NCBI GenBank assembly: GCA_017473945.1
Contig: JAFUIW010000001.1
Location: 1-64,000, forward strand
Length of the DNA stretch: 64,000 bases
Source: Methanobrevibacter sp.
GTDB lineage: Archaea > Methanobacteriota > Methanobacteria > Methanobacteriales > Methanobacteriaceae
Direction: 5' to 3'
Part shown: positions 15,126 to 54,900 of the stretch, piece by piece
How positions within the stretch are numbered: position 1 is the stretch's first letter
How the letters are laid out: the number at the start of each line of letters is the position of its first letter
Translations under genes and position numbers: made by a program
The notes under the pieces: model-generated
What the model was told of the DNA's origin: nothing
Database searches by the model: none
What the model saw: the letters and a program-made list of their open reading frames with translations, nothing else

Positions 15126-15411
15126 CTTCAGAAAGTATGTTACTTAAAAAAGAAAAATGTCGGGTATTATTGAATCTGTCTTCAGACATGATGTGGGCGG
15201 AAATTAATTCACTTTTATCATGCATAATCCAGGCAACTTCATCATCGATTTGATCTTCGATTTTTTCAGGAAAATTAGATACTATCAAAATATCAATATC
15301 TGACTCCTCACCATCATCACATCTTGCAACAGATCCGAACAAAATGATTTTAAGGATATATTTTGAATTTATTGTTTTTGCAAACTCCTGAGCAATTTCT
15401 AATCTATTCAT
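15109..15411 (-). CDS. Minimal nucleotidyltransferase (MNT)
   Basis: A 100-residue protein from an ATG at 15411, which follows GGTGA with good spacing; an upstream TTG at 15423 is less likely. The motif GSVARCDDGEESDIDIL is the GSx10DxD signature of MNT antitoxin-type enzymes. In studied MntA-HepT pairs this enzyme AMPylates the HEPN toxin. It overlaps the HEPN gene, forming a two-gene unit in an accessory patch. Confidence 0.85.
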   Translation of the reverse strand: MNRLEIAQEFAKTINSKYILKIILFGSVARCDDGEESDIDILIVSNFPEKIEDQIDDEVAWIMHDKSELISAHIMSEDRFNNTRHFSFLSNILSEGVEIG

Positions 15412-15573
15412 GATATTCACCAAAGATTATTTTTGCATATAATTATTTTCAATTTCATTAATAATAAATATTTTTGAAGTACGACTTTATGAAAAAACAC
15501 AATGGGATATTTACTTCAAATTTAATTAAAAAATGGCTAATTTTAACAATATGTAAATAATATATTACATAAT

Positions 15574-16834: not shown

Positions 16835-16865
16835 TAAAAAGTTATAGAAAAAATTTATTATTTAA

Positions 16866-16900
16866 TTTATATAAATAATATAATAAATAATATAATAAAT
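16866..16900 (+). promoter_or_regulatory. Phage-type AT-rich promoter block, portal unit
   Basis: TTTATATAAATAATATAATA continues into AATAATATAATAAAT. It is one of about eight similar blocks found in front of phage units in this window (see also 18228, 36251, 38244, 53391, 56616, 57558, 57901). TTTATATAA fits an archaeal TATA box and the ATG lies about 50 bp downstream. Confidence 0.55.
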
Positions 16901-16920
16901 CATATTTGGAAATGATAATT

Positions 16921-18222
16921 ATGGGAATTACATCTTTCATTAAAACTAGATTATTGAATAATCGTGTTGAGCAGTATAACACTAAACGCAGCTATTGGGG
17001 TGAAGATGAAAGACAACCTAGAACTGACGGAATAAATACAGGTCTTGATCTTGTTGATGCACTACCACCGGTAATCAATAAGACAATTGCTAATGCTCGT
17101 TATGCTGTTAAGCTTGATGGTTATACTGCAGGTGTTTTGAAAAACAGAATTGATAAAGCTAATGTTAATATTGTTCTTGTGGATAAGGAAAATAAATTAT
17201 CTCAAGAACAGAAACTAACTTTAATCTTATGGGCAAGAAAGATTGACATATCTCAGGTTGCTAAAAACATCCTTCAGGGAGGAATGGTTGACGGAGAAGG
17301 ATTAATCAAACCAGTACAACGCTGGGATAAAAGTATTGGCAAATATATTAAACCAATCTTTTTAGAAATAGGTGCTCACGGTTACGGCCTTAAAAAAGAA
17401 TTCAACGATGACAATGAAGTTCAACTATACTTACATGAGATGCCAAAAGATATTGTAAACGGATCTCCTGAAGAGTTCAACAATTATGTTAGTGTGGAAG
17501 AAGGAACCTTAACGGTAAAGTACGAACCGGATGAGGTCATTAACTTCATGTACAATGAAATCTACTGTGAAGCTCAAAGCATTATCTTGAATTGTCTTGA
17601 TGATATATACCACAAGTGCAATCTTGAAAGAAATCAGGTAGAGAGAATTAATAAAGATAATATCATTGAAGTAAAACCATCACTTGACTCTAACGGCCAG
17701 CCTATTGTTACTGAACTTTCATCTACTGCAAAAGAAAATCTTTATGCAGATTACGGAACCACTGCAAACTCAAACGTAGCTATTGTACCTCCAGGAATTG
17801 AAAGTAAAATACTTGGGGGTAACAACTACCAGTCAGACTATACTCGGCAGACTGAAATCTTTAGGAATAATATTTTAAGAACTTTTGTTACTCCTCAGTC
17901 CCAGGCAGGTAATGAGAAATCAAACCAAAACGTTGCTGAATACATTAACGATTCAGCCATTACCGGTTTTATTGTTAATGTAGCCAATGACCAGAAATGG
18001 GTGTTAAAGTATTGCAATCAATTATTGAATATGCAGTTGGAGTTAATGGGCATTAGTGAAACATTAGACGTTTACTTCAGCTATTCAAGAGATGATGTTT
18101 TAAGATACATCATGGAATTGTCTGCTGAAGGTGATGAAATCTATAAGAACTATCTCAGTAACTTTGAAGAGGAACAGCCTGTCGGTGAAAGAATCATCTC
18201 TGATAGTGGTGTTGAAATATAA
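16921..18222 (+). CDS. Phage portal protein (probable)
   Basis: About 433 residues from ATG 16921, five bases after GGAAATGA; in-frame ATG 16912 and TTG 16906 are alternatives. The layout is portal-like: an N-terminal helical part (ITSFIKTRLLNNRVEQYN), a central wing region with NILQGGMVDGEGLIKPV, and a C-terminal crown region with RQTEIFRNNILRTFVTPQSQ and a helical tail. Portals form the dodecameric DNA gate at one capsid vertex. The next gene looks like a scaffold/protease, which supports the call. The terminase expected beside it is instead at 59-60 kb. Confidence 0.65.
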   Translation: MGITSFIKTRLLNNRVEQYNTKRSYWGEDERQPRTDGINTGLDLVDALPPVINKTIANARYAVKLDGYTAGVLKNRIDKANVNIVLVDKENKLSQEQKLTLILWARKIDISQVAKNILQGGMVDGEGLIKPVQRWDKSIGKYIKPIFLEIGAHGYGLKKEFNDDNEVQLYLHEMPKDIVNGSPEEFNNYVSVEEGTLTVKYEPDEVINFMYNEIYCEAQSIILNCLDDIYHKCNLERNQVERINKDNIIEVKPSLDSNGQPIVTELSSTAKENLYADYGTTANSNVAIVPPGIESKILGGNNYQSDYTRQTEIFRNNILRTFVTPQSQAGNEKSNQNVAEYINDSAITGFIVNVANDQKWVLKYCNQLLNMQLELMGISETLDVYFSYSRDDVLRYIMELSAEGDEIYKNYLSNFEEEQPVGERIISDSGVEI

Positions 18223-18227
18223 TAAAT

Positions 18228-18275
18228 ATTTATATAAAATAAGTAATAAAATATATAATAATTAATATAATAAAA
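18228..18275 (+). promoter_or_regulatory. Phage-type AT-rich promoter block, scaffold unit
   Basis: ATTTATATAAAATAAGTAAT is followed by AAAATATATAATAATTAATA and TAATAAAA. The same order of TTTATATAA, AAGTAATAAA and TATATAATAA is seen at 53391 before the decoration gene. A separate promoter here means portal and scaffold need not be a single transcript. Confidence 0.55.
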
Positions 18276-18285
18276 AGTGATAATG

Positions 18286-19254
18286 ATGAGGCATGAACTT
18301 TTTGAAGTCGGATCATATGACTACTCCGACCTGGACGATAGACTTGACAAACCGGTGAACTGGACTGAAGATGATCTAAAACTAATAGCTGAAAACTACC
18401 GTGGAGGAATTCCACTAACTTGCGAACATGACAATATCTATGTTGGTATTGGAAACAATATTGAATACGAAGAAGGTAAGCTATTCATTGAAATTCCGGA
18501 TGAACTGGACATGGAAGGAAAAGGCCTATCTCCTAAAGTTGATGTCTTGTTAAAGGATAAAGGAGATTCATTTGGAATTGATACTATGAGTTTAATAGAT
18601 GTAGGAGTTACTAAACACCCAAGAAAGATTAGACTGTTGAATTCTGAAATAACTGGCGAAACTGGTGCAGCTGGAAATCCGGAACCCTCACCACAAGGAC
18701 AACCCCAGCCACAACCTGCACCTTCAAAAGAAACTAATGTAGCTACTTCATTATTGCTAGAGAAATTGCAAGGTAAGGATGCAGAGATTGGAAAGCTTCA
18801 GGATGAAATAAACAATCTTAAAGAAGAATCCAAAAAATACGATGAAATTAAAAAAGCTATTGAAGAAAATAAGGAATTCATTGACAGTAAAGATGATATC
18901 CTAAAAGAATTGTCTGAGCTTAGAAAAGCTGAAAATGAAAGGAAAATAAAAGAATACGAAGCTAAATACAATTTCAACTATAATGAGAATGCTCAGGATA
19001 AGGAAATAATAGATAAGCTATTGACTGGTGATGTTGATATGGAACTTATGGAAAAACTTGCTGAGAGAAGAATTAAAATTGAAGCTGCAAGTGACGGTTC
19101 AGCACCTGGAGGGAGAAATCCTGAAAACTCTGGTGAAGCAGGAGATACCGGATCAACTGGAGGTAGTGAAGATGAGAATGCTCCTTCATTTACTACTCGT
19201 GAGGAATATAATAAGATTCTAAAGGATATGGGATTCAACCGAACTAGAATCTAG
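18286..19254 (+). CDS. Phage prohead scaffold/protease-like protein
   Basis: About 322 residues; ATG 18286 is placed five bases after GTGA, with ATG 18283 and GTG 18277 as other options. The N-terminal 120 residues (LTCEHDNIYVGIG, DTMSLIDVGVTKHPRKIRLL) resemble Mu I-type prohead protease domains, where a phrase like SLTxHP marks the end of the fold. Then come a Pro/Gln-rich linker, a long coiled coil (about residues 155-230) and a Gly/Ser/Glu-rich stretch before a short C-terminal helix, as in scaffold proteins. The catalytic residues cannot be assigned. No capsid gene follows; the hairpin array does. Confidence 0.6.
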   Translation: MRHELFEVGSYDYSDLDDRLDKPVNWTEDDLKLIAENYRGGIPLTCEHDNIYVGIGNNIEYEEGKLFIEIPDELDMEGKGLSPKVDVLLKDKGDSFGIDTMSLIDVGVTKHPRKIRLLNSEITGETGAAGNPEPSPQGQPQPQPAPSKETNVATSLLLEKLQGKDAEIGKLQDEINNLKEESKKYDEIKKAIEENKEFIDSKDDILKELSELRKAENERKIKEYEAKYNFNYNENAQDKEIIDKLLTGDVDMELMEKLAERRIKIEAASDGSAPGGRNPENSGEAGDTGSTGGSEDENAPSFTTREEYNKILKDMGFNRTRI

Positions 19255-19262
19255 CTATGAAG

Positions 19263-19286
19263 GTGTTTTTTAGTTGCTTTATACAC
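19263..19286 (+). other. Small stem-loop with TTTTAGTTGCTTT loop, copy 1
   Basis: TTTTAGTTGCTTT (19268-19280) is enclosed by short complementary arms (GTGT and ACAC). The same 13 bases are enclosed by AGTGAAG/CTTCACT at 55898-55926, downstream of the second capsid gene. Both lie just after a virion gene, so a shared 3' end element is possible. Confidence 0.4.
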
Positions 19287-19328
19287 TGGAGCTACGAATT
19301 TCATATACTCGCTCGTTGTTTATTTGAA

Positions 19329-19823
19329 AAGGGGAAGTGTACATCTCTTCTCACTTCTCCTTAAAAATTTTGCATTGAAACCCTTAATGCCTAATTAAGG
19401 GGGGGACAAGCCCCCCTTTAATTACCCAAGAAAGCCAATGCAAATAAATTCAAGTTTATCAAAACTTAACCTCGAACCGACCGCTAAAGGGTCGGTTCTT
19501 AAATTTGACAAAATCATCTATACCAAATCCATAAACTCGGAATGGGGGGACAAGCCCCCATTCCTCGGACTTGACAAAGATATTATTGTTAGGTTCTATA
19601 GTATGGCCTTTCGCTTCGCTCAAGGCGTCCAGTCCTCGCTTACGCTCGGACGGAACATTCAGTTAGAAAATAAATTAACTATCTTTCAATGGTATTTATC
19701 TTACGGAACCGACCGGCAGGGGTCGGTTCCTCACAATAGCATATGCTCGCCAATTCTATTCACCCAGGCCTCCCACACACGCCTCCCTTACGGTCGGCGT
19801 GGGGTCGGCCTGGGCGAATTGGC
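19329..19823. repeat. Array of about eight GC-rich hairpins
   Basis: Successive inverted repeats: 19329-19362; 19392-19424 (TAATTAAGGGGGG arm, loop ACAAG); 19474-19498 (GAACCGACC/GGTCGGTTC); 19539-19564 (GGAATGGGGG/CCCCCATTCC); 19606-19626 (GCCTT/AAGGC); 19632-19651 (GTCC/GGAC); 19705-19730 (GGAACCGACC/GGTCGGTTCC); and a 75-nt long stem 19749-19823 (GCCAATTC, CCCAGGCC and GGCGTGGG arms). The GACAAGCCCC and GGTCGGTTC stems each occur twice. GC content is far above the neighbourhood. A 131-codon open frame (19438-19833) runs through it but has no protein-like character, so I treat the region as structured DNA or RNA. Confidence 0.75.
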
Positions 19824-19979
19824 TCGCTTATAACATGGGTGAGGTAATATTGTTCTGGTAAAAAATGGATGTTATGTTTCCAATTGGAAATGAAATTTTG
19901 TATACTATGTGGCTCTGGTAAATGTTTTTTATATTATTTTATTTTTTAAATTCCTAATTAAATTTTTGGTGTGATTATG

Positions 19980-20417
19980 TTATAAGTAATCTGGACCAAT
20001 TAAATTAATTTCATCGAAATGTTTGAACTGTTGATCGAAACTAACCAAATCGGTTATATTTGATTCTTTCATGGTTAAGATTATGCTTGAGTCTGTGAAG
20101 CTTAATTTTGTTTTTTTGCTGTTGGATCCAACAACTCTTTTGAAAATATCAAAGGTTTTGCTTGTGTAGTTGACAATATCGTATTCATTTAATATTTCAA
20201 AACTATCGATTAAACCATAATATGTTTCTTCTGCCGCATCGATGTTAATTTTCCTACCAGCTAATGTTAAAACTTCATTTAACACATTATTGTTTATATA
20301 GCAGTTCTGTGACAATACATTTTCGGCTTCTTCCAATTTTATGGCATTTTCATGTAAATCATCATTGGAATTAACAAATCCCATTATGAATGAAGTGTCT
20401 AAAAATACTTTTCTCAT
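19980..20417 (-). CDS. PIN-domain toxin, VapC type
   Basis: A 145-residue PIN ribonuclease. Acidic active-site positions are visible in VFLDTSFIMGFVN, NNVLNEVLTLAG, LSFTDSSIILTMKE and DLVSFDQQFKHF. VapC toxins cut tRNA or rRNA when freed from their antitoxin. The start overlaps the AbrB-type gene by four bases, a typical TA arrangement. A decayed fragment of a similar PIN end lies 0.5 kb away at 20937-21017. Confidence 0.88.
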   Translation of the reverse strand: MRKVFLDTSFIMGFVNSNDDLHENAIKLEEAENVLSQNCYINNNVLNEVLTLAGRKINIDAAEETYYGLIDSFEILNEYDIVNYTSKTFDIFKRVVGSNSKKTKLSFTDSSIILTMKESNITDLVSFDQQFKHFDEINLIGPDYL

Positions 20418-20647
20418 TCGTATAAACTCCTTTTTAGTTCTACAGCATTTGTTCGTTCATCAGATTTAAAAGCTCCAACTAAATCTTTAAAGCTTCTTTT
20501 TTTCCTGAAATTTATTTCAGGGTTTCCATTATCATTGATGGCCCATTCTACAACAGTGTCGTTGTCGATGTCATAATTTTTTCTGATTTCTTTTGGGATG
20601 GTGGTTTGGTAATTACTTTGAATTTTACTTGTAGCTAATATTAGCAT
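20414..20647 (-). CDS. AbrB/MazE-type antitoxin
   Basis: A 77-residue protein with the swapped-hairpin AbrB start: SKIQSNYQTTIPKEIRKNYD, then DTVVEWAINDNG. The C-terminal half (KRSFKDLVGAFKSDERTNAV) is the usual flexible toxin-binding part. It precedes and overlaps the PIN toxin gene and would repress the pair. The promoter should lie in the AT-rich region above 20650. Confidence 0.85.
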   Translation of the reverse strand: MLILATSKIQSNYQTTIPKEIRKNYDIDNDTVVEWAINDNGNPEINFRKKRSFKDLVGAFKSDERTNAVELKRSLYE

Positions 20648-20791
20648 AGTTTCACCTATTATTTTAATATGTTCTATGATATTCTATATAACTCCGATAA
20701 TATAAATTTATCGGAAAAATCACTTGCAAAAAAAGAACATAATTTTCATTAATCAAACTGAAAAAGAAAAAAATGTAAAATAGCATTTAAG

Positions 20792-20880
20792 CTATTTTAC
20801 CACAATTTTACTTGTAACACTTTTTGCAGTGTAGTCGGAATCGTCCACAAACATTGAGGTTTGTATTGAAGGTTCCTTTT
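20792..20880 (-). pseudogene. Remnant of an adhesin-like protein C-terminus
   Basis: Reading leftwards, one frame gives VDDSDYTAKSVTSKIVVK and a stop at 20792-20794, the usual end of Ig-like repeats of Methanobrevibacter adhesin-like proteins. Just upstream another frame reads ATPINLFVFKGTFNTNLNV, so a frameshift separates them. Only some 40 residues are left. Confidence 0.5.
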
Positions 20881-20936
20881 AAAAACAAAAAGGTTAATGG
20901 GAGTTGCATCAACTGCTCAATCGTTGTGATTTCTAA

Positions 20937-21017
20937 GGTTTTGAGTTGGATTATGTTGTCTCTCTAGACAAGTTTTTTGAAAAATTCGAAGAAATAGAAT
21001 TGCTCGAACTGGTATAA
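20937..21017 (+). pseudogene. Remnant of a PIN-domain toxin C-terminus
   Basis: The frame reads GFELDYVVSLDKFFEKFEEI then ELLELV and stop. This aligns with the end of the intact PIN toxin nearby (LVSFDQQFKHFDEINLI). A stop codon lies directly upstream, so only the tail remains. Confidence 0.5.
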
Positions 21018-21176
21018 AAAATAATATATACATGAAAAATATAATGATAATAAGTAAAATACAATAAATTATTTTACTGGCGAAAAGATTATCTTTGAGC
21101 GGGATAAAAAAAATTTTTGACCTCAACAAAAAAATATTTCACCACTCAAAGCATCTTTTCTATTAATCTTCATTCG

Positions 21177-21233
21177 ATCACATGTTATTATGCAGAAAAA
21201 AATATTTTTTTCTCATAATAACTAATATGTGAT
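21177..21233. repeat. 57-nt near-perfect palindromic hairpin
   Basis: ATCACAT (21177-21183) pairs with ATGTGAT (21227-21233), GTTATTATG (21184-21192) with CATAATAAC (21214-21222), and the centre AGAAAAAAATATTTTTTTCT is itself palindromic. It sits in a 1.46-kb gene-free stretch (20648-22111) with otherwise only gene remnants and AT-rich DNA. Confidence 0.7.
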
Positions 21234-21247
21234 TTTCGGATGCTTTA

Positions 21248-22003
21248 GATTGTATTAATCTACTGCATTTCACTGATTTTGATAAACGTTTTGTTATCAC
21301 TTTAAATTTTTAAATTTAAGTTTAAAATTAATATTTTGATAATTATTTGATAATTTTTTATTTATTAATGTTAATTGGTATTTCTAGTTGAGTATGGTTG
21401 ATTTAAGTGATGGTAACCGTTTGGTTACCTTGATTTTTTCTAAAGATTTTAGAGTCAATTTTAAAAATAGCCTTAAAAATTCTGCAGGCCAATTAACAAA
21501 AATGAATGGTCTTTAAAACAATACTTTAAACAGTTTTAAGGGAGTTTAGGTTTATTTAAAATAAAATGGTTCTTAGTGTTTGTGCAGGTTGGTGTGTAAT
21601 AAAATAAATTTGTTCGAAAAACACATTAATTTGATTTTAAATTAAACATTGAAATCATTTGATATGAATTAATTGGACTTTAAATAAGTGATAACTAGTA
21701 ATTTGTAGTCTATATTATTCAAATATATTTTTAATCATGTAATTTTTCTTAGTGCAAAAAATTCACGGGAAAATAATGATTTAACAGATTTTAACAAATT
21801 CAAATATAATTGATAATCGGAAAGTTTATATTGATAAATTGATAAATCATATATCAAGTATAAGTTATCAATTTGCTTGTACTAAATTAAGCCTTAAACA
21901 TTCTTAAAAATCATTTAAGAAACAAACACAAAAAACTGCTTAATTTTAAAAATTATAAAAGAAGTTCGATTCAAACTTATAGGTGCAGTAGATTAATACA
22001 ATC
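21248..22003. repeat. 20-bp perfect inverted repeats bounding a 756-bp non-coding segment
   Basis: GATTGTATTAATCTACTGCA at 21248-21267 is repeated exactly in inverted form at 21984-22003. The segment between has no gene-like frame; it also contains GGTAACCGTTTGGTTACC near 21412. The pair could be ends of a degenerate MITE-like element or a recombination site; no target-site duplication was seen. Confidence 0.5.
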
Positions 22004-22056
22004 AACTGCATTTTAAAGTAAAAATTAAACTTCTTTTGAAAAAATAAATTGAATGG

Positions 22057-22083
22057 TGCAAGTTTTCAGAAAAAAACTTGCAC
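22057..22083 (+). promoter_or_regulatory. Hairpin in the leader of the first adhesin-like gene
   Basis: GTGCAAGTTTT (22057-22067) pairs perfectly with AAAACTTGCAC (22073-22083), ending 28 bp before the ATG at 22112. It is followed by an A-run, not a T-run, on this strand, so it is more likely a leader structure or operator than a terminator of a rightward transcript. Confidence 0.45.
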
Positions 22084-22111
22084 GAAAAAAAATTTAATGA
22101 TGTGATAAGAT

Positions 22112-23629
22112 ATGAAGATTAATTATAAATTAATTGGATTAGTAATGTTCGTCATGATGATTTGTTGCATTAGCGCAGCCAGTGCAACAGATGTAGACAA
22201 CATTACCGTACCTGATGACACAGGCGTCATTGAAATAGATGATACTGTAGACTCAGTAGACGAAGTAGAAAGTGAGGGAATTGATGACACTGTAGATGGT
22301 GTTGATACACAACAAAATTTAAGAGGAAATGCAAATATTAATGGAAATACAAATATCGCTAATTATTTCGATTCTACTACTGGTGTTTTATTAAGTAACG
22401 CTGGAAATACATTAACATTTGGTGGCGATTTTTACAAAGCAAATTATAATTATAAAAATTTTATAGTTAACAGAGCTGTAACAATTAATGCAAATGCTAC
22501 AAATATCCCAATTTTACATGATATGGGATTCCAATTAATAGCTGATGGAATTACTTTAAATGGCATAACATTTGATATAAATGCCCCAAGTGGTGAAAAT
22601 TGTTATGCAATTGATATTGAAAGTGCAAATAATGTGAATGTAATAAATAATAAAATAACCTATACTTGTGGCAGTGATAATGCTGCTTATTATAATTATG
22701 TAATTAAAGCAAACAATAGTGGAAATTTAACAATATCTGGAAATAAAATGAATGCAACTTTACCTCTCAAAACACCTGATTGGTATGCTGCAGGAATAAA
22801 TGCAGATTTCGTTGCAGGAGTAGCGATTCAAGATTGTGATAATCTAAGCTTCACAGGAAATACTGTAAACATAACTGGTAATCGTCGTGTTGGCGGTTTC
22901 CCTACACTTGATGCTATTATGATTGTAAGTAGTGATGATGTATACATGGGTAATAATGAAGTTTATTTAGCAGATGCAATAACTGCTACTGATGATTATA
23001 GTTACATATATGGTATTGACGTATATCAATGTAATAGAATTGAAATTAATAATAATACTGTAGAAATGAATGGAAATAAATCTGGTGGACAATATAAAGG
23101 AAATGGAACTGGTGCAGCATACTGTATACAACTTACTGGTCCGCATACTGGTATAGTAATATCAAATAATACTTTAACTACTAAAAACAATGGACCTAAC
23201 TTAGGTATTTACTCTCAAAACTATTATGGTGATACTAGCATTACTATTTGTGGTAATCATATTAACGTAACTGGTAAAGCAGGTAGTGATGAATGGTCAT
23301 TAGTATCTGGTATGGAATTACAAGATACTAATGCAAATGTATATGGAAATACCATTTATGTAAACAACACTGCAGGTTATAATAGTACTTATTATGCATT
23401 TGGTATAAGTTATTGTCAAAATACTTACAATGATCCTCATTATTATAATATTCATGATAATAATGTGACTGTGTATAATGCGGATTATGCAGTTTACTTA
23501 TTAGATGATGAGTCTGTTAGTGGAAAAGTAATTAATAATACTTTGATAGCGTATAATACTGGTAGTAACACTGGTGATAATGCTGTATGTGTTGATGAAA
23601 ATAATGTTGGGGTAGATAATAATAATTAA
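22112..23629 (+). CDS. Secreted beta-helix adhesin-like protein
   Basis: 505 residues beginning with the signal peptide MKINYKLIGLVMFVMMICC and an ASA-like cleavage site near residue 26. After an acidic linker (about residues 26-70) come many right-handed beta-helix turns with Asn ladders, for example NVNVINNKITYTCG, NLTISGNKMNATL and NRIEINNNTVEMNGN. It ends in YNTGSNTGDNAVCVDENNVG with no Ig-like or anchoring domain, unlike the two genes downstream, so it may be truncated or released. Adhesin-like proteins of this genus are thought to act at the cell surface; the target is unknown. Confidence 0.85.
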   Translation: MKINYKLIGLVMFVMMICCISAASATDVDNITVPDDTGVIEIDDTVDSVDEVESEGIDDTVDGVDTQQNLRGNANINGNTNIANYFDSTTGVLLSNAGNTLTFGGDFYKANYNYKNFIVNRAVTINANATNIPILHDMGFQLIADGITLNGITFDINAPSGENCYAIDIESANNVNVINNKITYTCGSDNAAYYNYVIKANNSGNLTISGNKMNATLPLKTPDWYAAGINADFVAGVAIQDCDNLSFTGNTVNITGNRRVGGFPTLDAIMIVSSDDVYMGNNEVYLADAITATDDYSYIYGIDVYQCNRIEINNNTVEMNGNKSGGQYKGNGTGAAYCIQLTGPHTGIVISNNTLTTKNNGPNLGIYSQNYYGDTSITICGNHINVTGKAGSDEWSLVSGMELQDTNANVYGNTIYVNNTAGYNSTYYAFGISYCQNTYNDPHYYNIHDNNVTVYNADYAVYLLDDESVSGKVINNTLIAYNTGSNTGDNAVCVDENNVGVDNNN

Positions 23630-23636
23630 CTATTCA

Positions 23637-23666
23637 AGATTATTGTGTCTTTAAACACATAATCTT
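23637..23666 (+). terminator. Hairpin terminator between adhesin-like genes
   Basis: AGATTATTGTGT is followed by CTTTAA and ACACATAATCT, then TTTTT. The stem lies between the stop at 23629 and the next start at 23685, so transcription of the two adhesins is probably separated or attenuated. Confidence 0.55.
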
Positions 23667-23684
23667 TTTAAATTTTTTGATATT

Positions 23685-26600
23685 ATGAGATTTAAGCCTA
23701 TTTTATTCATAGTTTTATTGATTTTCATTGTATTTTCATTTAATTTTGTTACAGCTACTGATAATGTTACTTATTCATTAAATACAGTGAATAATGATCA
23801 TAATATTGAAATTCCAGTCAGTTCTTCTGATGTTAGTAGTGTTGGAAATGTATCTTCATCTAGTGAAGACAATGAAATGGATGGAAATAATTTAGATTCA
23901 TTTTCTAATAGTGGATCCAAAATAATTTATGTGGGTCATCATAATAGTACTGAAGGGGGTAAAGGATCGTTAGATGATCCATTTACAACTTTTAAAGCAG
24001 CTTGTGATAATGTTAGTGGTGAAGATAAGGTAACTCTTTATGTTTTTAGTGGAACTTATTATTTAGGTGAAGGTATGGTTTCTGGAAGTCATACTCCATT
24101 AATATTCAACACAACTGATTTAAACATTGTTGGTATTAATGGGTCAGTAATTATTAAAAATAAGTTTGATATTAAAAAAGGAGGTAATTCTGAAGCATTT
24201 GCCTTAACTTCTTCTTCTGCAAATTTTACATTTTCAAATTTAATTTTTGATGCATCTGGTAAAACTGTACCAACATTTTCAGGTGATGATACTAGTAATG
24301 CAAAAGCGACTTTTTTTTATCCATTCTATGGTCAAGCACATTTGGGAAATTTTTATAATTGTTCATTTATAGGTTTAAGTGCGGCAAATAGAATTTCAGA
24401 TAATCTTAAATATTTCCCTAATTTTGTTGGTTGTTATTTTGAGAAATTAGATACAAAAGGAGGCACCATTCTTGGAACAGCTACTAATATACCTTTTGTT
24501 TTTGAAAATTGTATATTTAATTTAAATGCTGTTAAGGTTTTAACAGGAGGTAATATATATTTACCGTATAATAGTTATTATTTTAATCAAGTATGGTTTG
24601 GTCAAAATAATCTTCCAGTGTATGTTGGTCCATTTTCAGGAAATATTGTAAATCCTGATGGAACTGTGAATAATACTTATACTATTCCACTTAATAGGTA
24701 TGCAATCTTTTCTGTATCTGAAAATTATTTAGGTAACAATCAATATGAGATTATTGGTAAATTGACTTGGAATGGCACTGAAGATCAGGAAGGTATGGAA
24801 AACTTCCAACCAATGACTGTTAATTTAGTATCAGCTACTGGGGATATTAACCCAACTGCTACTTTAGTTAATGGTAATTTCAGAACTATTTACACAAGTT
24901 CAAATTCAACCCATAAAGTAACTGCTACATTACATAATGAAGAAATTGAATTAGAATTCACAAAAGTAAACATTACCACTGACCCAGTAAGTATTTACTA
25001 TGGTGAAGATCAAAATGTCACATTTAATTTCACTCAGCCAATTGCAGCTAATGTTACTGTAACAGTTTCCAATGGAAGTTACAATAAATCCGAAAGAGTC
25101 GAAATCATTGATAAAGATTCCTTTGTATATACTATTCCAGATACTTTAAAAGAAGGTACTTATGATGTTGAAATCAATTTAGCAGAAAATAACTTATTCG
25201 GTTTCAACACAACCACTTTAACAGTATCTAAAGTAAGTGATTATACTTTTGATGTTGCTACTGGTGATGTTAAAGTTGGAGATAATGCAACAATATCCAT
25301 CACATTACCTGATGATGTAACTGGCACTGTCATCGTCAAATTTGGTAATGATACTAAAGAATTGTCTGCAAACCAAACAATGGCTGTAAACTTCACAAAC
25401 TTAAATGCAACAACATACAGTGTAAATGTATCTTACAGTGGTAATGACAAGTATGTAGCTTTAGATAAACCGGCTAGTGTAACAGTTAACAAAGCAGATT
25501 CAAGTCTTGAAATTGAAGATGTGGTATTTACTTATGGTGATGTCATAGTTATTCCATTTAATGTGACTAATGCAAATGGTGTTACTGTCAGTGTTTTAAA
25601 CAAAGATGATGATGAAGTTGCAACTGCTTCAAGTGAATCAGGTACTATTAACTTAGATGCCTTACCTGCAGGTAAATACACTTTAGAAGCAACAACAATT
25701 GTTGGCTCTAACTATGAATGGGTTTCAAAAACAATTGATTTAACAATCAATAAAGCAAACTCCAGCATTGATATTTCTGATAAAGAATTCACTTATGCAG
25801 AAGATGCAGTCATCAATGCAGTAACTATAAACTCAACTGGAGATGTTATTGCAACATTAACTGATGAAAATAACACTGAAATTGCAGTCACTGTATCTGG
25901 AGACAGTATTACTTTACCAAAATTAAATACAGGTAATTATACATTAACTGTAACAACAAATCCTGATGAAAACCATACTGATATTACCAAAACAGCTACA
26001 ATAACAATTAACAAAGCAACTCCTTCAATGAATGTTGTTGTTGAACCAGTAGAAAACATCACAACAAAAGATGATGTAACATTAACAATCAGTTTACCGT
26101 CTGATGCTACTGGTGAAGTTACAGTTAAAATTAATGGTAAAAAAACAGATACTAAATCTGCAAATGAAACATTAACCATTAATCTAAACAACCAAGCAGG
26201 AGACTATGTTGTCGATATCACATATTCTGGTGATAAAAACTACGAAAGTGACATTGCAACCAAAGAGTATATAGTCTCTAAAGCTGAAACTTCAATAACT
26301 GCAAACCCAATAGTATTTGAAGAAGGAAACACATCAACACTCGAAATTAATATTCCAGATGTTGATTCCGGATTTATATTAGTAGATGTTAATGGTAAAA
26401 AATTCTATGGCGATATCAATAGTGGTAAAGCTACTGTTTTAATTGATGGTTTAGTTGCAGGCAATTACACAGCAAACATCATCTTTGCAGGTGATGGAAA
26501 ATTCAATAAAGCTACTGGCACAGTCGCAGTGAATGTCACACCAACAGTTGACATAATCAGCCAACTCAATGAAATCATTAAAGAGCTAAACAACACAATT

Positions 26601-27566
26601 GAGACTCAAAAAGAACAAATCAATATCCTTAATAATACTGTAGCTACTCAAAACAGTACTATTGAGTCTCAAGCTGAGAAAATTAGTAATCTTACTGAAA
26701 CTGTAGCTATTCAGAATAATACTATTGAGTCTCAGAAAGCTGAAATTGATTCTCTAAATAATACTGTAATTACTCAGAACAGTACTATTGAGTCTCAAGC
26801 TAAGGAAATTAGTAATCTTACTGAAACTGTAGCTATTCAGAATAATACTATTGAGTCTCAGAAAGCTGAAATTGATTCTCTAAATAATACCGTGATTAGT
26901 CAGAACAGTACTATTGAATCTCAGAAAGAACAAATTGGTAACTTAAACAAGCAAATTGATAAAAAAGACGTAGTCCTTGTTGTCGATCAGACTTTCACCC
27001 GTGCTGCTGTTGACTACAATGCTGGTGAAAGAGGCGGAATGTTTTATGCAATCTTAAAAGACAGTAAAGGTAATACTTTAGCTAATAAAACTGTACAAAT
27101 AGCCTTTAATGGTAAAGTCTACAATAGGACTACTGACAACGAGGGAAAAGCAGGTATACAAATAAACCTTGCTAATGCAAACACATACTCTTATGCAGTA
27201 TCCTTCCAAGGTGACGACCAGTATAATGCAGCACCAATTGCAGTATCAAAATTAACAGTCACTAAAAAGAAAACAACCATTAAAGCGGCAAATAAAGTTT
27301 TCAATGCTAAAACCAAATCTAAAAAGATTAGCGTAACACTTAAGACTGTTAAAAACAAGTATGATAAAAAAACATACTTAAAATCTGGTAAAAAAGTAAC
27401 CTTAAAAGTAAATGGTAAAACCTACACCGCAAAAATCAACAAAAAAGGAGTAGCTAAATTTACCATAAAAATAACTAAAAAAGGTAAATACACAGCTAAG
27501 ATTAAATTTGCAGGCGACAAAACCTACAAAGCATCTAGCAAAACAATAAAAATAAGAATAAAATAA
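23685..27566 (+). CDS. Adhesin-like protein with beta-helix, Ig-like repeats and coiled coil
   Basis: 1293 residues. Signal peptide MRFKPILFIVLLIFIVFSFN; a beta-helix region at about residues 75-350 (IIYVGHHNSTEGGKGSLDDP start); then about six Ig-like bacterial repeats (about 425-960), each with a phrase such as GTYDVEINLAE or YSGNDKYVALDK. Residues about 968-1093 are a coiled coil of 21-residue repeats (TIESQKAEIDSLNNTV). The last 200 residues hold Ig-like domains and a Lys-rich end (KGKYTAKIKFAGDKTYKASS). No membrane anchor or LPXTG-like motif is visible; the basic C-terminus may bind the pseudomurein wall, which is inference. Confidence 0.88.
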   Translation: MRFKPILFIVLLIFIVFSFNFVTATDNVTYSLNTVNNDHNIEIPVSSSDVSSVGNVSSSSEDNEMDGNNLDSFSNSGSKIIYVGHHNSTEGGKGSLDDPFTTFKAACDNVSGEDKVTLYVFSGTYYLGEGMVSGSHTPLIFNTTDLNIVGINGSVIIKNKFDIKKGGNSEAFALTSSSANFTFSNLIFDASGKTVPTFSGDDTSNAKATFFYPFYGQAHLGNFYNCSFIGLSAANRISDNLKYFPNFVGCYFEKLDTKGGTILGTATNIPFVFENCIFNLNAVKVLTGGNIYLPYNSYYFNQVWFGQNNLPVYVGPFSGNIVNPDGTVNNTYTIPLNRYAIFSVSENYLGNNQYEIIGKLTWNGTEDQEGMENFQPMTVNLVSATGDINPTATLVNGNFRTIYTSSNSTHKVTATLHNEEIELEFTKVNITTDPVSIYYGEDQNVTFNFTQPIAANVTVTVSNGSYNKSERVEIIDKDSFVYTIPDTLKEGTYDVEINLAENNLFGFNTTTLTVSKVSDYTFDVATGDVKVGDNATISITLPDDVTGTVIVKFGNDTKELSANQTMAVNFTNLNATTYSVNVSYSGNDKYVALDKPASVTVNKADSSLEIEDVVFTYGDVIVIPFNVTNANGVTVSVLNKDDDEVATASSESGTINLDALPAGKYTLEATTIVGSNYEWVSKTIDLTINKANSSIDISDKEFTYAEDAVINAVTINSTGDVIATLTDENNTEIAVTVSGDSITLPKLNTGNYTLTVTTNPDENHTDITKTATITINKATPSMNVVVEPVENITTKDDVTLTISLPSDATGEVTVKINGKKTDTKSANETLTINLNNQAGDYVVDITYSGDKNYESDIATKEYIVSKAETSITANPIVFEEGNTSTLEINIPDVDSGFILVDVNGKKFYGDINSGKATVLIDGLVAGNYTANIIFAGDGKFNKATGTVAVNVTPTVDIISQLNEIIKELNNTIETQKEQINILNNTVATQNSTIESQAEKISNLTETVAIQNNTIESQKAEIDSLNNTVITQNSTIESQAKEISNLTETVAIQNNTIESQKAEIDSLNNTVISQNSTIESQKEQIGNLNKQIDKKDVVLVVDQTFTRAAVDYNAGERGGMFYAILKDSKGNTLANKTVQIAFNGKVYNRTTDNEGKAGIQINLANANTYSYAVSFQGDDQYNAAPIAVSKLTVTKKKTTIKAANKVFNAKTKSKKISVTLKTVKNKYDKKTYLKSGKKVTLKVNGKTYTAKINKKGVAKFTIKITKKGKYTAKIKFAGDKTYKASSKTIKIRIK
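26583..26957 (+). repeat. 63-nt tandem repeats encoding a coiled coil
   Basis: About six copies of a 21-codon unit, pattern LNNTVxxQNSTIESQxxxIxN alternating with LTETVAIQNNTIESQKAEID. Twenty-one residues equal three heptads, with Leu, Val and Ile at core positions. Copies in the middle are almost identical in DNA as a 126-nt double unit, so the tract can change length by slippage or recombination. Confidence 0.8.
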
Positions 27567-27575
27567 TAAAACACT

Positions 27576-27612
27576 TGAAGAGTAAACATACTCTTCAATT
27601 TTTTTCTTTTTT
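27576..27612 (+). terminator. Terminator after the 1293-residue adhesin
   Basis: TTGAAGAGT (27576-27584) pairs with ACTCTTCAA (27591-27599), followed by a T-rich tail. The remaining gap to 27824 is AT-rich with an AAAGGAGC ribosome site near the next start and nothing else recognised. Confidence 0.7.
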
Positions 27613-27824
27613 TATTCAATAAATTTATCTTGGGGAGTGTCCGATAATTATTGGATTTTCGAATCTCCTTTTTATATTTTTTTTACTTTTAATTAGATTA
27701 CTCTTTTTCACAGATTTATATTATTCATAACTTTAATGAATCAATTCTTAATATTTTATTTAAATGTTTTAAATTAATATTAAGAGTTTCATAAAAGTTT
27801 ATTTTTCATAAAAGGAGCTGTTTT

Positions 27825-30800
27825 ATGAATTATAAATACCTTATCTTGATGTTATTTGTTTTGTTTTTAAGTATGAGTATGGTATCTGCAAATGAAATCG
27901 GAGATAATATCACATCAATAAATGATGAACCAACAATGGAAAGTGTAGATAATATTTCCTCTTTAAGTGTTGAATCTCCAAGTGAAACTGTAGATAATAT
28001 TGACTGTGTGAATGAAAATAGTAATCTTAATGATTCAAATATTCTTAAATCTTCCTCTCAATATGTATTTCAAAGTGGGGAAGATGTTATTGTAGTAAAT
28101 GATTGGAATGAATTACAATATTATTGTGCACAAACGGATAAAGATTATACTTTAAAATTAAAAGAAAACACTAATTTCTACCCTCAAGACCCTCATGACC
28201 CGATTTATCAAATTAAAATTAAGAATAATGTAAAAATTATTGGGAGTGATGGAGCATATATTGGTGATGAATCACAAAATGTTCGAGACATACGTTTTGT
28301 AGCATTTTTAATTGAAGACAATTTAAAATCTGCTTCATTAAATATTGAAAATGTTACTTTCAAACATATTTGGGTTGTTTATTCTGCTTTGGGTGCTGGT
28401 GGAACACGTGATGGTATATTTATGCAGATGGGTGGAAAAAAGAACAATATTTTTAAAAATTGTATTTTTCATGATGTTCTTTCCCAGTATGGGCATGCAA
28501 CAATTGTTTATCTTAAAAAAGGATCTGCTACTTTAGATAATTGTAGTTTTATAAATTGTACTAGTGGATATGGTGCAGTTAGTGTCTATGATCCAAGTAG
28601 TGTGAAATCTACAGATATGATTGTTCGTAATTGTTATTTTGAAAATAACTATGCTTCTACAGAACCGGGTTGTATTAATAATTGTGGTAAGTTAACTGTT
28701 TATAATACTACTTTTGTTAAGAATAGGTCTTTTTGGTGGGCAGGAGCAATACATACTCACAATGGAGGTAATACTACTATTTATGATTCTAATTTCACTG
28801 ATAATGTTGCTGGTTGGAATGGTGGAGCATTATACACATATAGTTATTTACAAATTTATAATTCTGTATTTATAGGTAACAATTGTACTACTAATGCTGG
28901 TGGTGGTGCAATAGGTGCATGTTCACACCAAACTGATCCACATATTTATATTAAAAATTGTCTTTTTAAGGATAATAATAACAATTGTTGGGCTACTGAT
29001 GAATTATCTAATGATTTAGGAAATGGTGGTGCTATAGCTTTTATGGATGCCGGTTCACTCACTGTTTTGGATAGTACTTTTGTTGCTAATTCTGCAGCAT
29101 ATGGTGCTGCAATCAGAGCTATGGATGTTGCTACATATGGGTCACCAGATATTATTATTGTAAATAATTCATTTATAAATCATACTAGGCATAATGATGT
29201 TTTAATGCTTCATGTGGATGGAACTATCCTCAATGTTTCTAATAATTATTTTGAAGGTAATTCTATTGTATTTTCTAAGCTAACTCTCACTAAATTAAGT
29301 GAAGGCAGGGAACAGGCAACATTGCAAATTAATGCTTCTTTAAAAAATCCATCTTATTATGATGAGGATATTTTAGATAAAACATTGTATGATGTTTACA
29401 TCAATAATAAATATGTAAAAACTGTAAATACAACAGTTTTCACTGTCGATTTTGGTGATTTGGATATTTGTGATGTTTATGTCATTCCAACAATTTCAAA
29501 TAGAAAATCCAATGAAGTAACCATAACAAGCACTAGGGAATATGTATTCGTTTCTAAAAGTAATGGAAATGATTCTAACAATGGAATTTCTAGAGACAAT
29601 CCAGTTAGCACTATTAAAAGAGCGTTGGAGCTTGCAAATGTTTGTCAAAACATTATTTTGTTAGATGGTGATTACTCAGAAAGTGATATTCAAATTGATT
29701 ACGGTGTCACAATCAAAGGTGAAGGCAATGCTACATTAACGGGCACTACATCATTTATCAGTAACGCTAACTTCACTTTGAAAAATCTGAAAATCAATAA
29801 TTTGAACACTGAGAATTTCATCAAGCAAAATAAGGACAATCTTGTCATTTCCAATTGTATTTTAACCAACAACAATGCAATTTTAGTCTACAATAACGGT
29901 TTTTCTTCTTTAACCAATTCCATATTGTTAAACAATTCTAAAGTAGTTGATGGCAACATTAATGATTGTGTTTTGGATTATAATTGGTGGGGCAATGTTC
30001 CTTCAGAGTTAAGTAATTATATTACTTTAAATCTAACTTCTGATGTTAATGCTTTGGAAAATAATCAAAAAGCAAACGTTAAAGCTGTGTTCTATTTAAA
30101 TGATGGAAGCAAATACACAAACTTACCAGATATCAATCTTGACGTCACAGTATTGAATGGTGTTGCAAGCCAAAGTACTGTCAATATTGATTCTAGTATT
30201 GTTTACACTTTAACTGCTTTTAGTGATGGTGCTTTAACTGTTAGTTATAATAACATTAACATCACTAAGTCTTTTGAGTTTTTAAAGTCTAATCCAAGCA
30301 TTTCATTAGATACTAATGATATAATGTTTGGTGATGATGTAATTGTCACTGTAACTACTCCAAGTGATGTGGAAGGTAATTTAACTTGCACTATTGGAAA
30401 CCTTTCACAAACTAAAGCAATCCAATCTGCAAAATCCACTTTCACATTTGAAAACTTAAAAGCAGACACATACACTATTACTGTAACATACACCGGTGAT
30501 AAGAAGTATCTCTCTAAAGAGTTAACTTCAACAGTTAATGTTAACAAGTATGAATCCACCACTAAATTGAATCTTAGCACTGTTAATGTTGGTGAGGATG
30601 TAATTATAACAATTACCACAACTGCTACTTCAACTGGTAATGTTACTTTATCAATTAATGATAACGTTCAAACTTTAAAATTAATTGATTCCAAGGCAAA
30701 CTTCACTATTAAAAACATTAAAAGAGGAGATTATCGTATCAGTGCTGTTTATAATGGTGATGAGAAATATTTGACAAGTCAAGACTCCAAGTTCATTGAA

Positions 30801-33800
30801 GTGGATAATTTAAATGCTACAATGTCTATTAAAACAGATGATATCTCTTATGGTGATGTAGCAGTAATTAAAGTCACTTTAAATGATGATGCTTTTGGAA
30901 ATATTACAGTAACTGTTGATGGCAAATCAAACCAATCTAAATTATCTAATGGTAAAGCTGAAGTTACATTCGCCAATCTTGATGCAGGATCTAATAAAAA
31001 CATCAGTGTATTCTACACAGGTGATGATACATACTTCAACTTGACCAAAACAAGTACTTTCAATATTGCAAAGGCTGATTTAACATTTTCTATCTCTTCT
31101 AGTGATATTAAGATTGGTCAATTTGCTGAGATTGTCATTACTGTTCCGTCAAAGACTACTGGTACTTTCACAATCGGTGAGGATGTAATCAATATTCCTA
31201 TGTCTGGGGAGATTTCATATGTCATTTCTGATTTGGCAATCGGCAACTACACATACACTGCAACATACAACGGTAACAATTACTACACTGTATCCAACTC
31301 TACCAGTTTCACTGTTAGTGAGTATCCGATTCCACAGGTTTCAGATGAAGGTTTCAACACCCAAAACTCTCATAAATCCCAGTATGAAACCACAACTAAT
31401 GGAAATATCGCTTTTACTATTCCATTTAATGAAACTTTATCAGGGGATTTGGTGATTGACAGTTTTGGTAATGTTTACTTGCCAACTCAATCTGGTATCT
31501 ATGCATTTAATCAGACTTGTAAATTATGGTATTTCACATCCACTGCTGCGGCAGGTAACCTTTCTGGAATTGCAATCAGCCGTGATGTCATCATTGCACC
31601 TAAATCCGGTGATACATTATACTTCATCAATCAGACTTCTGGTGAGAGATGGGGGGAATCCAATATATATCAGGGTTCCAGTTTCTTTGCTCCGGTAGTT
31701 GATGAGGGTGCAACTTTATATATTGTAAGTGAGTATCAGTTCAGTTCTGAAGACTATAAGCTCACAATTGTTCCGTATAAGTTGTGGGAGAAAGGAGGTG
31801 ATCCAACATTAGTAACAATAGGTAATACTCAGCCATTGTGTTCTCCAACCTTAAACGAGAACATTATTGTGGTTGTCTCAGACAATAGGTTAAGAATAAT
31901 TGATGCTAAGTCATTGCAGACTATTGCAATCAAATCAGGTAATTATTTGCCTATAAGACCAATCATTGGTGAAGGCAATATTGTTTATGCTCTGTTAAGT
32001 GACAGTGTTGTTGCGTATAATGGTAATGGTGTGCAGGTTTGGAAAACCAAAGTCACAGGAGGAATCGGATCCACAATAGCATTAGACAATGAGCAAGGCC
32101 TATACCATATCAATGCTAAAGGAATTATCTATAAGTATGATATTGTTGACGGTACTCAGTCCAAGTTTTCAAATTTAAAGGTAACTTCAGGAATCCTTAT
32201 TGATGCCAACAATAATGTATACTTTGGATCAAACAACATGTTCTATGCTCTTGACAGTGAAGGAAACATCCTCTGGAAATCTGATTTAGGCTCTAAAATT
32301 ATTGGAAATCCTGTCATGGATGCTTCCGGTCTGATTTATGTTCCAACCGAAAACAGCATCACAGCACTAACATATGCACCTTTAAGAAATGCAATCAATG
32401 TTACTGTAGAGGATATTTTTGTTGGCCAGACCGCTGAAGTTAAAATCACAGCAGACTCTCAAATCGTAAATAAGTTCACATACACAATCAACGGTGAAAC
32501 ATTCACCAGTGATGCTGGAACAATCATTAAGACATTGTCCGATTTGGCTTTAGGCAATTACACTGTTGAGGTTTCATATGTGGGTGATGCTAGATTTGCA
32601 AGTCAAAATGATGTATTCACTTTTGAGGTTAAAAAGTTCACTCCAGCATTAACTGCTTCAGCTGGAAACATTACTGTTGGTGAGACTTTAGTAATCAGAA
32701 TAGATACTAACGTAACTGGTGTAATCTATGCAATAGTCGACGGCAATAACTACACTGCAAAAAATAACATTATCTCAATTGCAAATCTTAAAGCAGACAA
32801 CTACACTGCTTCTATTGTATATGTTGGAGATGATAAATACAATTCTATAACCAAAGAGCTTAAGTTCATTGTATCTAAAATAGGTGTCTCTCTTGATGAT
32901 GCTTTAAGCATTTCTGATGATAACACTACATTTACAGTTAAGTTGGCTGGTGATGCAACAGGTAGTTTAACCGTCAGTGTTGATAATACCAAATACAGTG
33001 AAAACGTTAAAGCAGGTTCAGCCGAAGTTGTAATTCCAAAATTAAGTGAAGGACCACACAACATCCAAATCACTTATTCAGGTGATGAGAAATATCTCTC
33101 TGACACTAAAAGCATAGTCCTTGTTGGTGAGAAAATAACTCCTGAGGATAACACAACAGATCCTATTGAAAACACTACTAACTCCACACCTGGAAACGAC
33201 ACCAATCCTAATGAAAACACTACCGCTCCATACGTCAACGTTTCAGATGATGCGTTCAGCATTCCTGAAAATGGCAGTGATTATAGTATTTCACTTCCGG
33301 GTGATGCTACTGGTACTTTGACTGTTACTGTTGATGGTAAGCCATACTCTCAAAACCTGACAAACGGTAAGGCTACAGTCACCATCCCTGAGTTAGGTGA
33401 GGGTTCTCATAATATTACTGTGTCTTATTCTGGTGACAGTAAATATGTGTCATGTTCCAAGTCTAGTGTTGTGGTTGTAAATCCTGTAAATGCAACCGGT
33501 AATACTACTGGAAATGCAACTGAAGGTAATGCTACCGGAAACACAACAGGCAATAACACTGGAAACGCTACTGTTCCGTCTGTGAATGTTTCTGATGATG
33601 CGTTTAGTATTCCTGAGAATGGTAGTGATTATAGTATTTCTCTTCTGGGTGATGCTACAGGTACTTTGACTGTTACTGTTGATGGTAAGCCATACTCTCA
33701 AAACCTGACAAACGGTAAGGCTACTGTTACTATTCCTGAGTTGGGTGTGGGTTCTCATAATATTACTGTGTCTTATTCTGGTGACAGTAAATATGTGCCA

Positions 33801-35019: not shown

Positions 35020-36069
35020 TTGTATTTTACAAATGACCAGGAATTAATTGATGATTTTCACTTGAAATCAGGTCACAGTCTCGGATCTATCCGCTCATAT
35101 AAGTCTGTATTTAACAAGTACAGGAATTTCCATGAAATGAGTCTGTGTGAACTTCTAGCAGAAGCGATAGGAGAGCAGGAAAACCACACTCCCCAAAACA
35201 GGTTAAGTATCTATGACAGGATAATCTCATTTAGGGATTATCTTGTTAAAAACAGTATTGGAAATACCGTTACTAATTCTGTATCTAAAATCAAGACATT
35301 CTACTATTACAACAGAGTGGCAGTGCCATTTATACCACCATTAAACAGTAACAACATTGCTAAAAACGACATTATAAGTTTTGCTGATTTGCCAACAAAG
35401 GATGAGTTGAGACTTGCCCTGAAGTTTGCGGATGATGATTTAAAGCTCTGGATTCTGGTTCTTATCTCTTCAGGTGCAACCAGATGTGAGGCCAAGTCAA
35501 TGACAAACAGGACATTATTTGAGGGTACACAATCATATCACAAAAAGGACAATTTCCCTGAGGCTTTAAAATATCTCTCACGCAGGAACAATATTGTCTG
35601 CACATGTAATCTGATCAGACGGAAAACAGATAAGCCGTACTATACTTTCCTCAATCCCGAATGCGTTCAAAGGATTGCCAGAATCAAGCTGAAACAGGGT
35701 GATTTTGATTTGGAAAGTCCGCTTCTCAAGTATGATGTCAACCATGTTAACCGTAAGTTTAAAAAGTTAAATGATTATTTGGGTTTCGGGGAGGTTGGAG
35801 GATATGCAAGGCTTCGCCCGCACATGCTAAGGAAATTCAACGCAACACATCTCACTCAGGGCTCTATGAATGATGACCTTTTGGGAATGGATCTTGTTGA
35901 TGAGCTTCACGGCCGTGGAAAAAACAAGACTCGGGAAGCCTACTATAAGGACAATCCAGAATATCTTAAAAGAAAATACATCATGGCAATGAACAACATT
36001 TCTCTTTATCGAAGATATAGTCATGAGATTGACAACGATAAAATTAAGGTAATCTCAAAGCCTCTATAA
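35020..36069 (+). CDS. Tyrosine recombinase, phage integrase
   Basis: 349 residues with a TTG start at 35020, placed seven bases after GTGAGGTAA. An N-terminal SAM-like core-binding part (SLGSIRSYKSVFNKYRNFHE) is followed by the catalytic domain: Arg I in ISSGATRCEAKSMT (near 155), HMLRKFNATHL (His near 268, Arg 271), and the nucleophile Tyr in REAYYKDNPEYL (near 309). It would integrate and excise the prophage. Fibre genes lie directly to the right and adhesins to the left; I could not identify att core sequences. Confidence 0.9.
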   Translation: MYFTNDQELIDDFHLKSGHSLGSIRSYKSVFNKYRNFHEMSLCELLAEAIGEQENHTPQNRLSIYDRIISFRDYLVKNSIGNTVTNSVSKIKTFYYYNRVAVPFIPPLNSNNIAKNDIISFADLPTKDELRLALKFADDDLKLWILVLISSGATRCEAKSMTNRTLFEGTQSYHKKDNFPEALKYLSRRNNIVCTCNLIRRKTDKPYYTFLNPECVQRIARIKLKQGDFDLESPLLKYDVNHVNRKFKKLNDYLGFGEVGGYARLRPHMLRKFNATHLTQGSMNDDLLGMDLVDELHGRGKNKTREAYYKDNPEYLKRKYIMAMNNISLYRRYSHEIDNDKIKVISKPL

Positions 36070-36250
36070 TAATTATTCTTTTTTTTATTCTTTTTTTTAT
36101 CGTTAGGATTAAAATAAATTCATATCTGTAATTTTAATAAACAGTATTTAACATTAAACATGAAATCAATCTGGTTTTCTATTATGCCGATAGGCTATTT
36201 TATATAATGGAATTGTTGGCGTTAATTTCAATATTACTTTTTTTATTATA

Positions 36251-36284
36251 TTATTTATATAAAAAAAATAATAAAATATTAATT
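36251..36284 (+). promoter_or_regulatory. Phage-type promoter block directly before a start codon
   Basis: TTATTTATATAAAAAAAATA then ATAAAATATTAATT abuts the ATG at 36285. The TATA-like box lies about 25-30 bp before this ATG, so transcription would start at or next to it, giving a leaderless mRNA. The 36070-36250 gap otherwise shows only T-rich terminator-like DNA. Confidence 0.55.
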
Positions 36285-49326: not shown

Positions 49327-49338
49327 ATTTATATTTCC

Positions 49339-49503: not shown

Positions 49504-49670
49504 AGGTAATTGTATATAATTTATCTTAAATAACATTTTTGCCTTGTTTATGTAGTTAAAAAAATAACATTTAAATAACATTAAGAATATATATTTACTC
49601 AAGACATATAAAAAACATAATTTTATATGAATTAATTTTGATAAATTAAAATATATTAGAGGTGACATAG

Positions 49671-54887: not shown

Positions 54888-54900
54888 GGAGGTGAAAGAA

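Follow-up and report, generated by a model that had tools for sequence, protein, structure and literature searches.

A conserved hairpin array directly 3' of the prohead protease gene in tailed viruses and proviruses of Methanobrevibacter

The window analysed here, 64,000 nucleotides of a methanogen chromosome carrying a Methanobrevibacter tailed provirus, contains at positions 19252-19836 a non-coding array of about nine strong hairpins, some 600 nt in length. The array starts at the stop codon of the prohead protease gene, located in the 5' arm of the first hairpin, and ends at about 19836, giving way there to an accessory-gene block that varies (Table 1). It is close to certain that this place harbours a conserved non-coding element, structured and carried by viruses, and the sequence comparisons indicate that it is maintained by selection on its paired structure. 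The best-supported reading, with a likelihood of about one half, is that the element functions as RNA, either as a structured 3' untranslated region (UTR) of the portal-protease message or as a processed stable viral RNA. The viral promoters ahead of the portal and protease genes would drive transcription through the element as the long 3' UTR of a late mRNA. Acting in cis, this UTR would protect and end the head-gene message, and the array would insulate the accessory genes, which would be separately controlled; alternatively, processing of the UTR would release a stable viral RNA.

Table 1. Coordinates in the window of the parts of the hairpin array and of the neighbouring provirus features.
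Feature	Position	Strand	Description
AT-rich promoter-like repeat, copy ahead of portal	16850..16905	+	Common to other gene starts of the provirus
Portal protein gene	16906..18222	+	93% identical to the vir323 portal protein
Promoter-like repeat, second copy, ahead of protease gene	18229..18284	+	Repeat match
Prohead protease / scaffold gene	18277..19254	+	88% identical to the vir323 prohead protease
H0 hairpin	19252..19294	+	UAGCU...AGCUA plus GGUG...CACU, overlapping the protease stop codon; after the protease in nearly all loci
H1 hairpin	19329..19362	+	AAGGGGAAGTG...CACTTCTCCTT; from the fold
M2 module	19367..19444	+	Outer stem TTGCATTG/CAATGCAA enclosing TAATTAAGGGGGG-ACAAG-CCCCCC; 24 distinct sequences, covariation
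M3 hairpin	19474..19498	+	GAACCGACC-GCTAAAG-GGTCGGTTC
M4 hairpin	19539..19564	+	GGAATGGGGGGACAAGCCCCCATTCC; versions AUGG/CCAU, ACAG/CUGU, AUAG/CUAU
M5 hairpin	19605..19626	+	With UC/UC internal loop
M6 hairpin	19627..19656	+	At least three exchangeable sequence versions
M8 hairpin	19705..19730	+	GGAACCGACC...GGTCGGTTCC
M9 terminal long stem	19745..19827	+	UC/UC internal loops; 24 distinct sequences; covariance model R1
Right border	19828..19836	+	Conserved TTATAACAT; homology fades, then accessory genes
Accessory block	19980..34715		PIN toxin and MazE-type antitoxin (- strand), then large adhesin-like genes (+ strand)
Integrase (phage integrase family)	35020..36069	+	PHROG and weak Pfam matches
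vir323 gene 5 homologue	36207..37475	+	Next conserved virus gene past the accessory block; comparison with vir323
Two HK97-type major head protein genes	53949..54887, 54892..55827	+	94-97% identical to the vir323 pair; Pfam Phage_capsid_4 for the vir323 homologue
Terminase large subunit	59015..60433	+	92% identical to the vir323 terminase; Pfam

A sequence-only reading of this DNA had described a string of hairpins after the phage scaffold gene, and the successive inverted repeats were confirmed, over a slightly longer stretch than claimed. The two GGGGGACAAGCCCCC stems, the two GAACCGACC/GGTCGGTTC stems and the long last stem that it listed are all present. The GGGGGACAAGCCCCC stems form a 22-nt direct repeat, 144 nt apart; one lies in M2, within the longer TTGCATTG/CAATGCAA stem, and the second in M4. 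The GC content, said to be far higher than in the surroundings, is indeed raised, although the gap is smaller than claimed (0.40-0.51 in the array versus about 0.26-0.43 around it, in 200-nt windows). In a scan with 60-nt windows, the densest cluster of strong hairpins was located at 19361-19861. Folding of a 512-nt segment on both strands, as the earlier reading had proposed, gave -195.7 kcal/mol for the plus-strand RNA (z = -10.9) and -204.1 kcal/mol for the minus strand (z = -9.9), with no shuffled sequence as good in either case; relative to shuffles, z lay between -9.9 and -10.9 on either strand, with RNA or DNA parameters alike. Twelve homologues also fold strongly on the plus strand (z from -4.5 to -13.4), a result that favours the RNA reading. 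Among internal loops the symmetric 2x2 loop UC/UC is by far the commonest, with 56 occurrences distributed over 25 of 27 elements, and the closing pair of M3 beside UAAA is C-G, A-U or G-C depending on the locus. In its own genome the array has no further match than a stray one of 17 bases. Searches with Rfam covariance models gave best E-values of 0.37 and 0.84, far below the gathering scores, and ROOL and GOLLD were absent from these. The GGGGGACAAGCCCCC stem proved useless as a family marker, being common in unrelated viral contigs; the 22-base M2 pattern, in turn, matched among the viral contigs vir323 and one unrelated sequence. Within M2, the segment CCCTTAATGCCTAATTAA (window 19381-19398 and relatives, alignment A2) is nearly invariant though partly unpaired. 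Since GCATT in this module can pair either with a nearby AATGC or with CAATGC further on, M2 could switch between two folds.

A protein hidden in the array was considered and rejected. A frame of 131 amino acids (19438-19833) changes its length in the relatives, and the loops carry length changes that break the frame. No reading frame of the element is conserved among relatives, and the corresponding stretch of vir323 has no annotated genes; the lack of a conserved frame also favours the RNA reading.

The genes around the array place it inside the provirus. Host genes, including those of leucyl-tRNA synthetase and NAD synthetase, were read from the open reading frames upstream of the provirus, and virus genes flank the element on both sides, in the window as well as in one-contig genomes. 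On its 3' side follow VapBC-like genes, adhesin-like giants, integrase, tail genes, head proteins, a pseudomurein endopeptidase and terminase. The order portal, head proteins, terminase is found in proviruses of several genomes, so that the element lies within the provirus and not at a virus-host junction, as an attachment site would. The proposal that it might be a packaging or recombination site was consequently not borne out, though the element does border the accessory-gene site. Likewise, it does not take the place of a capsid gene, as had been suggested, because both head genes lie further along the provirus. The viral reference for the identities in Table 1 is vir323, a circular 34-kb record, recorded as infecting Methanobacteriales, whose element is at 2477-3112, immediately 3' of the protease. 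The promoter-like repeat is an AT-rich sequence of about 55 nt with a TTTATATA core that precedes several virus genes, with further copies at about 36208 and 56595; it has the look of a promoter or operator common to the viral genes. Its presence ahead of portal and protease favours the RNA reading. Other features were observed in these viruses. A HEPN and nucleotidyltransferase pair of toxin-antitoxin type lies just upstream of the portal gene (14745-15423), outside the provirus or at its left end, and a type II methyltransferase, a restriction enzyme and a PDC-S54 candidate form a group of defence-type accessory genes at 48169-52167. In vir323 (L152) the interval that separates terminase from the next gene contains a non-coding stretch of 630 nt (32490-33121) rich in TGGACT-type repeats, a possible packaging or regulatory region, and clusters of TTGCAAC/GTTGCAA inverted repeats (23575-23730 and 24170-24400) flank one small gene.

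The position of the element is highly constant. Of 44 distinct loci, 43 have it, whole or in part, directly 3' of the stop codon of the protease: 38 of the 39 distinct loci that contain the protease 3' end plus five further loci, all positive. This fixed place, with the first hairpin overlapping the stop codon, favours the RNA reading, whereas the sole exception, the L189 provirus, which lacks the element, weakens it. Other Methanobrevibacter genomes, whose search had been advised, did yield homologues: of 61 related genomes compared by BLAST, 15 gave matches, and these all belong to one genus, whereas the M9 covariance model matched 30 of 151 Methanobacteriales genomes, from three genera within a single family. 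Searching named genomes at the protein level recovered 30 loci, nearly all from rumen or gut Methanobrevibacter assemblies. The element is carried by a finished single-contig genome (2,543,538 bases) taken as that of M. millerae SM9, where it occupies positions 558245-558841; this strain is reported to have just one prophage, which is 49 kb long and carries genes for an integrase, an MCM protein, a terminase and restriction-modification (PMC4987999). Another single-contig genome, of 2,937,203 bases, has a truncated copy alone, beside host genes. An assembly chimera, or inverted repeats arisen by chance, might be suspected in a genome assembled in 141 contigs such as that of the window, and the earlier reading had considered a foreign insertion or chimeric assembly. 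Both ideas are refuted by the conserved position, and the homologues in one-contig genomes and in a circular virus, together with the covariation described below, leave an artefact with a negligible probability.

Compensatory changes, for which a search had also been recommended, are present in the stems. In the 24 distinct sequences of M9, 93.5% of the cells are paired and nine of 28 pairs have changed on both sides; the covariation score is 0.201, compared with 0.089 +/- 0.008 in shuffles and at most 0.058 in slides, and there are 37 both-side cells against 9.1 in shuffles, counts that refer to sequences and not to independent events. The score of M2, also from 24 distinct sequences, is 0.092 against 0.048 in shuffles. 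Some rows of alignment A1 are slightly misaligned, which biases these results against structure. The both-sided changes of M9 and M2, exceeding the shuffle and slide controls, favour the RNA reading. Examples of compensation are the replacement of GCCAATTC/GAATTGGC by ACCAATTC/GAATTGGT and of ACGCC/GGCGT by ATGCC/GGCAT, and the two arms of M9 are lengthened together in L152, L156, L162, L187, L194 and L208. Conservation points in the same direction. Among 12 relatives (11 full-length and one truncated) pairwise identity is 92% in paired columns, 75% in the other aligned columns and 61% at fourfold codon sites of the protease, and the paired columns surpassed the fourfold sites in every one of the 66 comparisons. 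The suggestion of a structured RNA thus survives, homologues with compensatory changes being present in many genomes, while transcription, strand and function are inferred.

The pairs themselves bear on whether RNA or DNA is folded. On the plus strand 30 G-U cells were counted versus 14 A-C cells (p about 0.02, with cells that are non-independent), both classes being rare, and by pair column in M2 and M9 the difference is reduced to 7 versus 5. G-U represents about 1% of the paired cells, a low share for RNA helices, and Watson-Crick pairs, in a count that is neutral as to strand, about 97-98%. The minus strand has a slightly lower predicted energy, and on it UC/UC reads GA/GA and the common apical loop UUAC reads GUAA, two motifs whose stability is well known. 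It may therefore be this strand, or single-stranded DNA, that folds. The excess of G-U over A-C on the plus strand favours the RNA reading; the scarcity of G-U, the weakness of that imbalance and the minus-strand GA/GA and GUAA loops weaken it. If the palindromes were kept because a DNA strand folds, the hairpins would belong to single-stranded viral DNA, as a priming or replication signal or a packaging or recombination site. Such a DNA-level role, consistent with the nearly complete Watson-Crick pairing, with the minus-strand motifs and with the exchange of entire hairpins between fixed linkers, is a serious but minority possibility. It fits less well with the G-U cells, which still exceed A-C on the plus strand, with the location of the element behind a late structural gene instead of a replication gene, and with its internal position in the proviruses of several genomes. 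The plus strand is favoured as the functional one from the arrangement of the sequences, because portal and protease have the promoter-like repeats ahead of them in this orientation and because no conserved promoter for the minus strand was seen past the right border across the loci compared, where the sequence is unrelated between loci.

The array varies by entire hairpins, which are exchanged between constant linkers and also gained, lost or duplicated. Besides the full version there is one in which M4 and M3 are reordered with exchanged hairpins, one with other middle hairpins and a short one formed by H0, H1, M3 and two others; some loci contain internal duplications of the array. Downstream, the distance from the right border to vir323 gene 5 ranges from about 300 nt in L167, where no cargo intervenes, to 15 kb of unrelated genes. 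VapBC and adhesins occupy this interval in the window, and in other loci ferredoxin-type, MATE, HEAT/DUF285, UvrD-nuclease, schlafen-type helicase or DUF4365 genes do so. Since unrelated genes separate the same two ends across loci, the array may insulate or mark the cargo site. A small cysteine-rich frame of about 28-30 amino acids (MFCKWYYHGCCILFACPCDLTGSCGLKE and relatives) is conserved downstream of the element in several proviruses (L174, L198, L199, L202, L206). A sequence of about 75 nt (CAACCCGTGCATATATATCGCAGGG...GTTAATGTTAATGTT, with a TATA-like core) is repeated around the cargo and again before vir323 gene 5 (L236 7076-10566; also L156, L187, L225 and L226). The array could, beyond marking the boundary, promote cargo entry as a landing pad, for instance by recombination between repeats. 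The variable interval, its cargo-free arrangement in L167, the repeat on both sides of the cargo in L236 and the solo elements with variable left ends beside host genes would agree with this. However, some loci have other genes upstream of the portal and between portal and protease as well, the repeat flanking the cargo lies outside the element and resembles a promoter region, and a crossover site would not need covarying stems; the landing pad is thus considered unlikely.

The solo elements beside host genes have a fixed right end and variable or truncated left ends. In L223 and L239 an identical gene stands behind the element, and for this reason the left-truncated copies fit with decayed proviruses that kept their cargo. 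One-ended transposition, which such copies might evoke, is unneeded, provirus decay leaving the element and the adjoining cargo being sufficient. A mobile 3-kb unit of portal, protease and element, a candidate prompted by the diverse flanks on both sides, was discarded because, within the same genomes, copies of the portal, head-protein and terminase genes occur roughly in step, and the one-contig genomes have them in a single order. A simpler function, that of a set of transcription terminators between the late head genes and the accessory genes and nothing more, would account for an array behind an operon and for the promoter-like sequence that restarts before gene 5. Nevertheless, 600 nt of conserved, covarying stems far exceed the needs of termination, and runs of six or more T are nearly absent past the first 60 nt of the array (4 of 27 loci), in contrast to the U-tracts that follow the hairpins in clusters of intrinsic terminators. 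Archaeal terminators need not use hairpins. Termination as the only role is accordingly held to be very improbable.

Comparison with known systems gives partial likenesses. ROOL and GOLLD are large ornate RNAs of bacterial phages and prophages, long, structured and non-coding, whose function is not known (PMC12286853). The element is also a long structured non-coding stretch of tailed viruses and proviruses, but it belongs to archaeal viruses and consists mostly of separate hairpins in a row, with modules gained, lost or exchanged. Where those RNAs often occur near tRNA islands, the element lies behind the protease and the loci fetched contain only four tRNAs; they are abundant transcripts that form homo-oligomeric cages, while the element is known here from its sequence. 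In the two features tested, covariance model and tRNA islands, it agrees with neither family. REP/BIME sequences share with it the GC-rich hairpins in AT-rich surroundings and the exchangeable modules; for these, many dispersed copies would be expected, instead of one per provirus at a fixed place. Rolling-circle plasmids and small phages have single-strand and complementary-strand origins that, like the element, are hairpin-rich non-coding regions a few hundred bases long in which linkers are conserved. The element, however, is situated in the head-gene cluster of a tailed virus encoding an MCM helicase. Phage moron or accessory-gene insertion sites that have hairpins on their flanks also receive accessory genes at a set place between structural genes, including genes of defence or toxin-antitoxin type; the array differs in that it occurs whether or not cargo is there, greatly exceeds a terminator in length and is conserved in sequence. 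No literature on the element was found among the open-access papers searched, nor any description there of a large structured RNA in methanogen viruses.

A more ambitious interpretation, doubtful at present, is that the element represents a first family of large, structured and modular RNAs made by archaeal tailed viruses, arising at the 3' end of the message for portal and protease, built by exchange of hairpin modules and acting in trans in head assembly or DNA packaging. It would then be an archaeal counterpart, in spirit, of a packaging RNA or of ROOL and GOLLD. For bacterial phages, large structured RNAs have been described but still lack an explanation. The element accompanies one fixed pair of genes, is present in a host available in culture (M. 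millerae SM9) and varies naturally by entire hairpins, so that its job is directly testable. Moreover, it marks the place where the viruses of rumen methanogens gain and drop accessory genes, including those of toxin-antitoxin and defence type.
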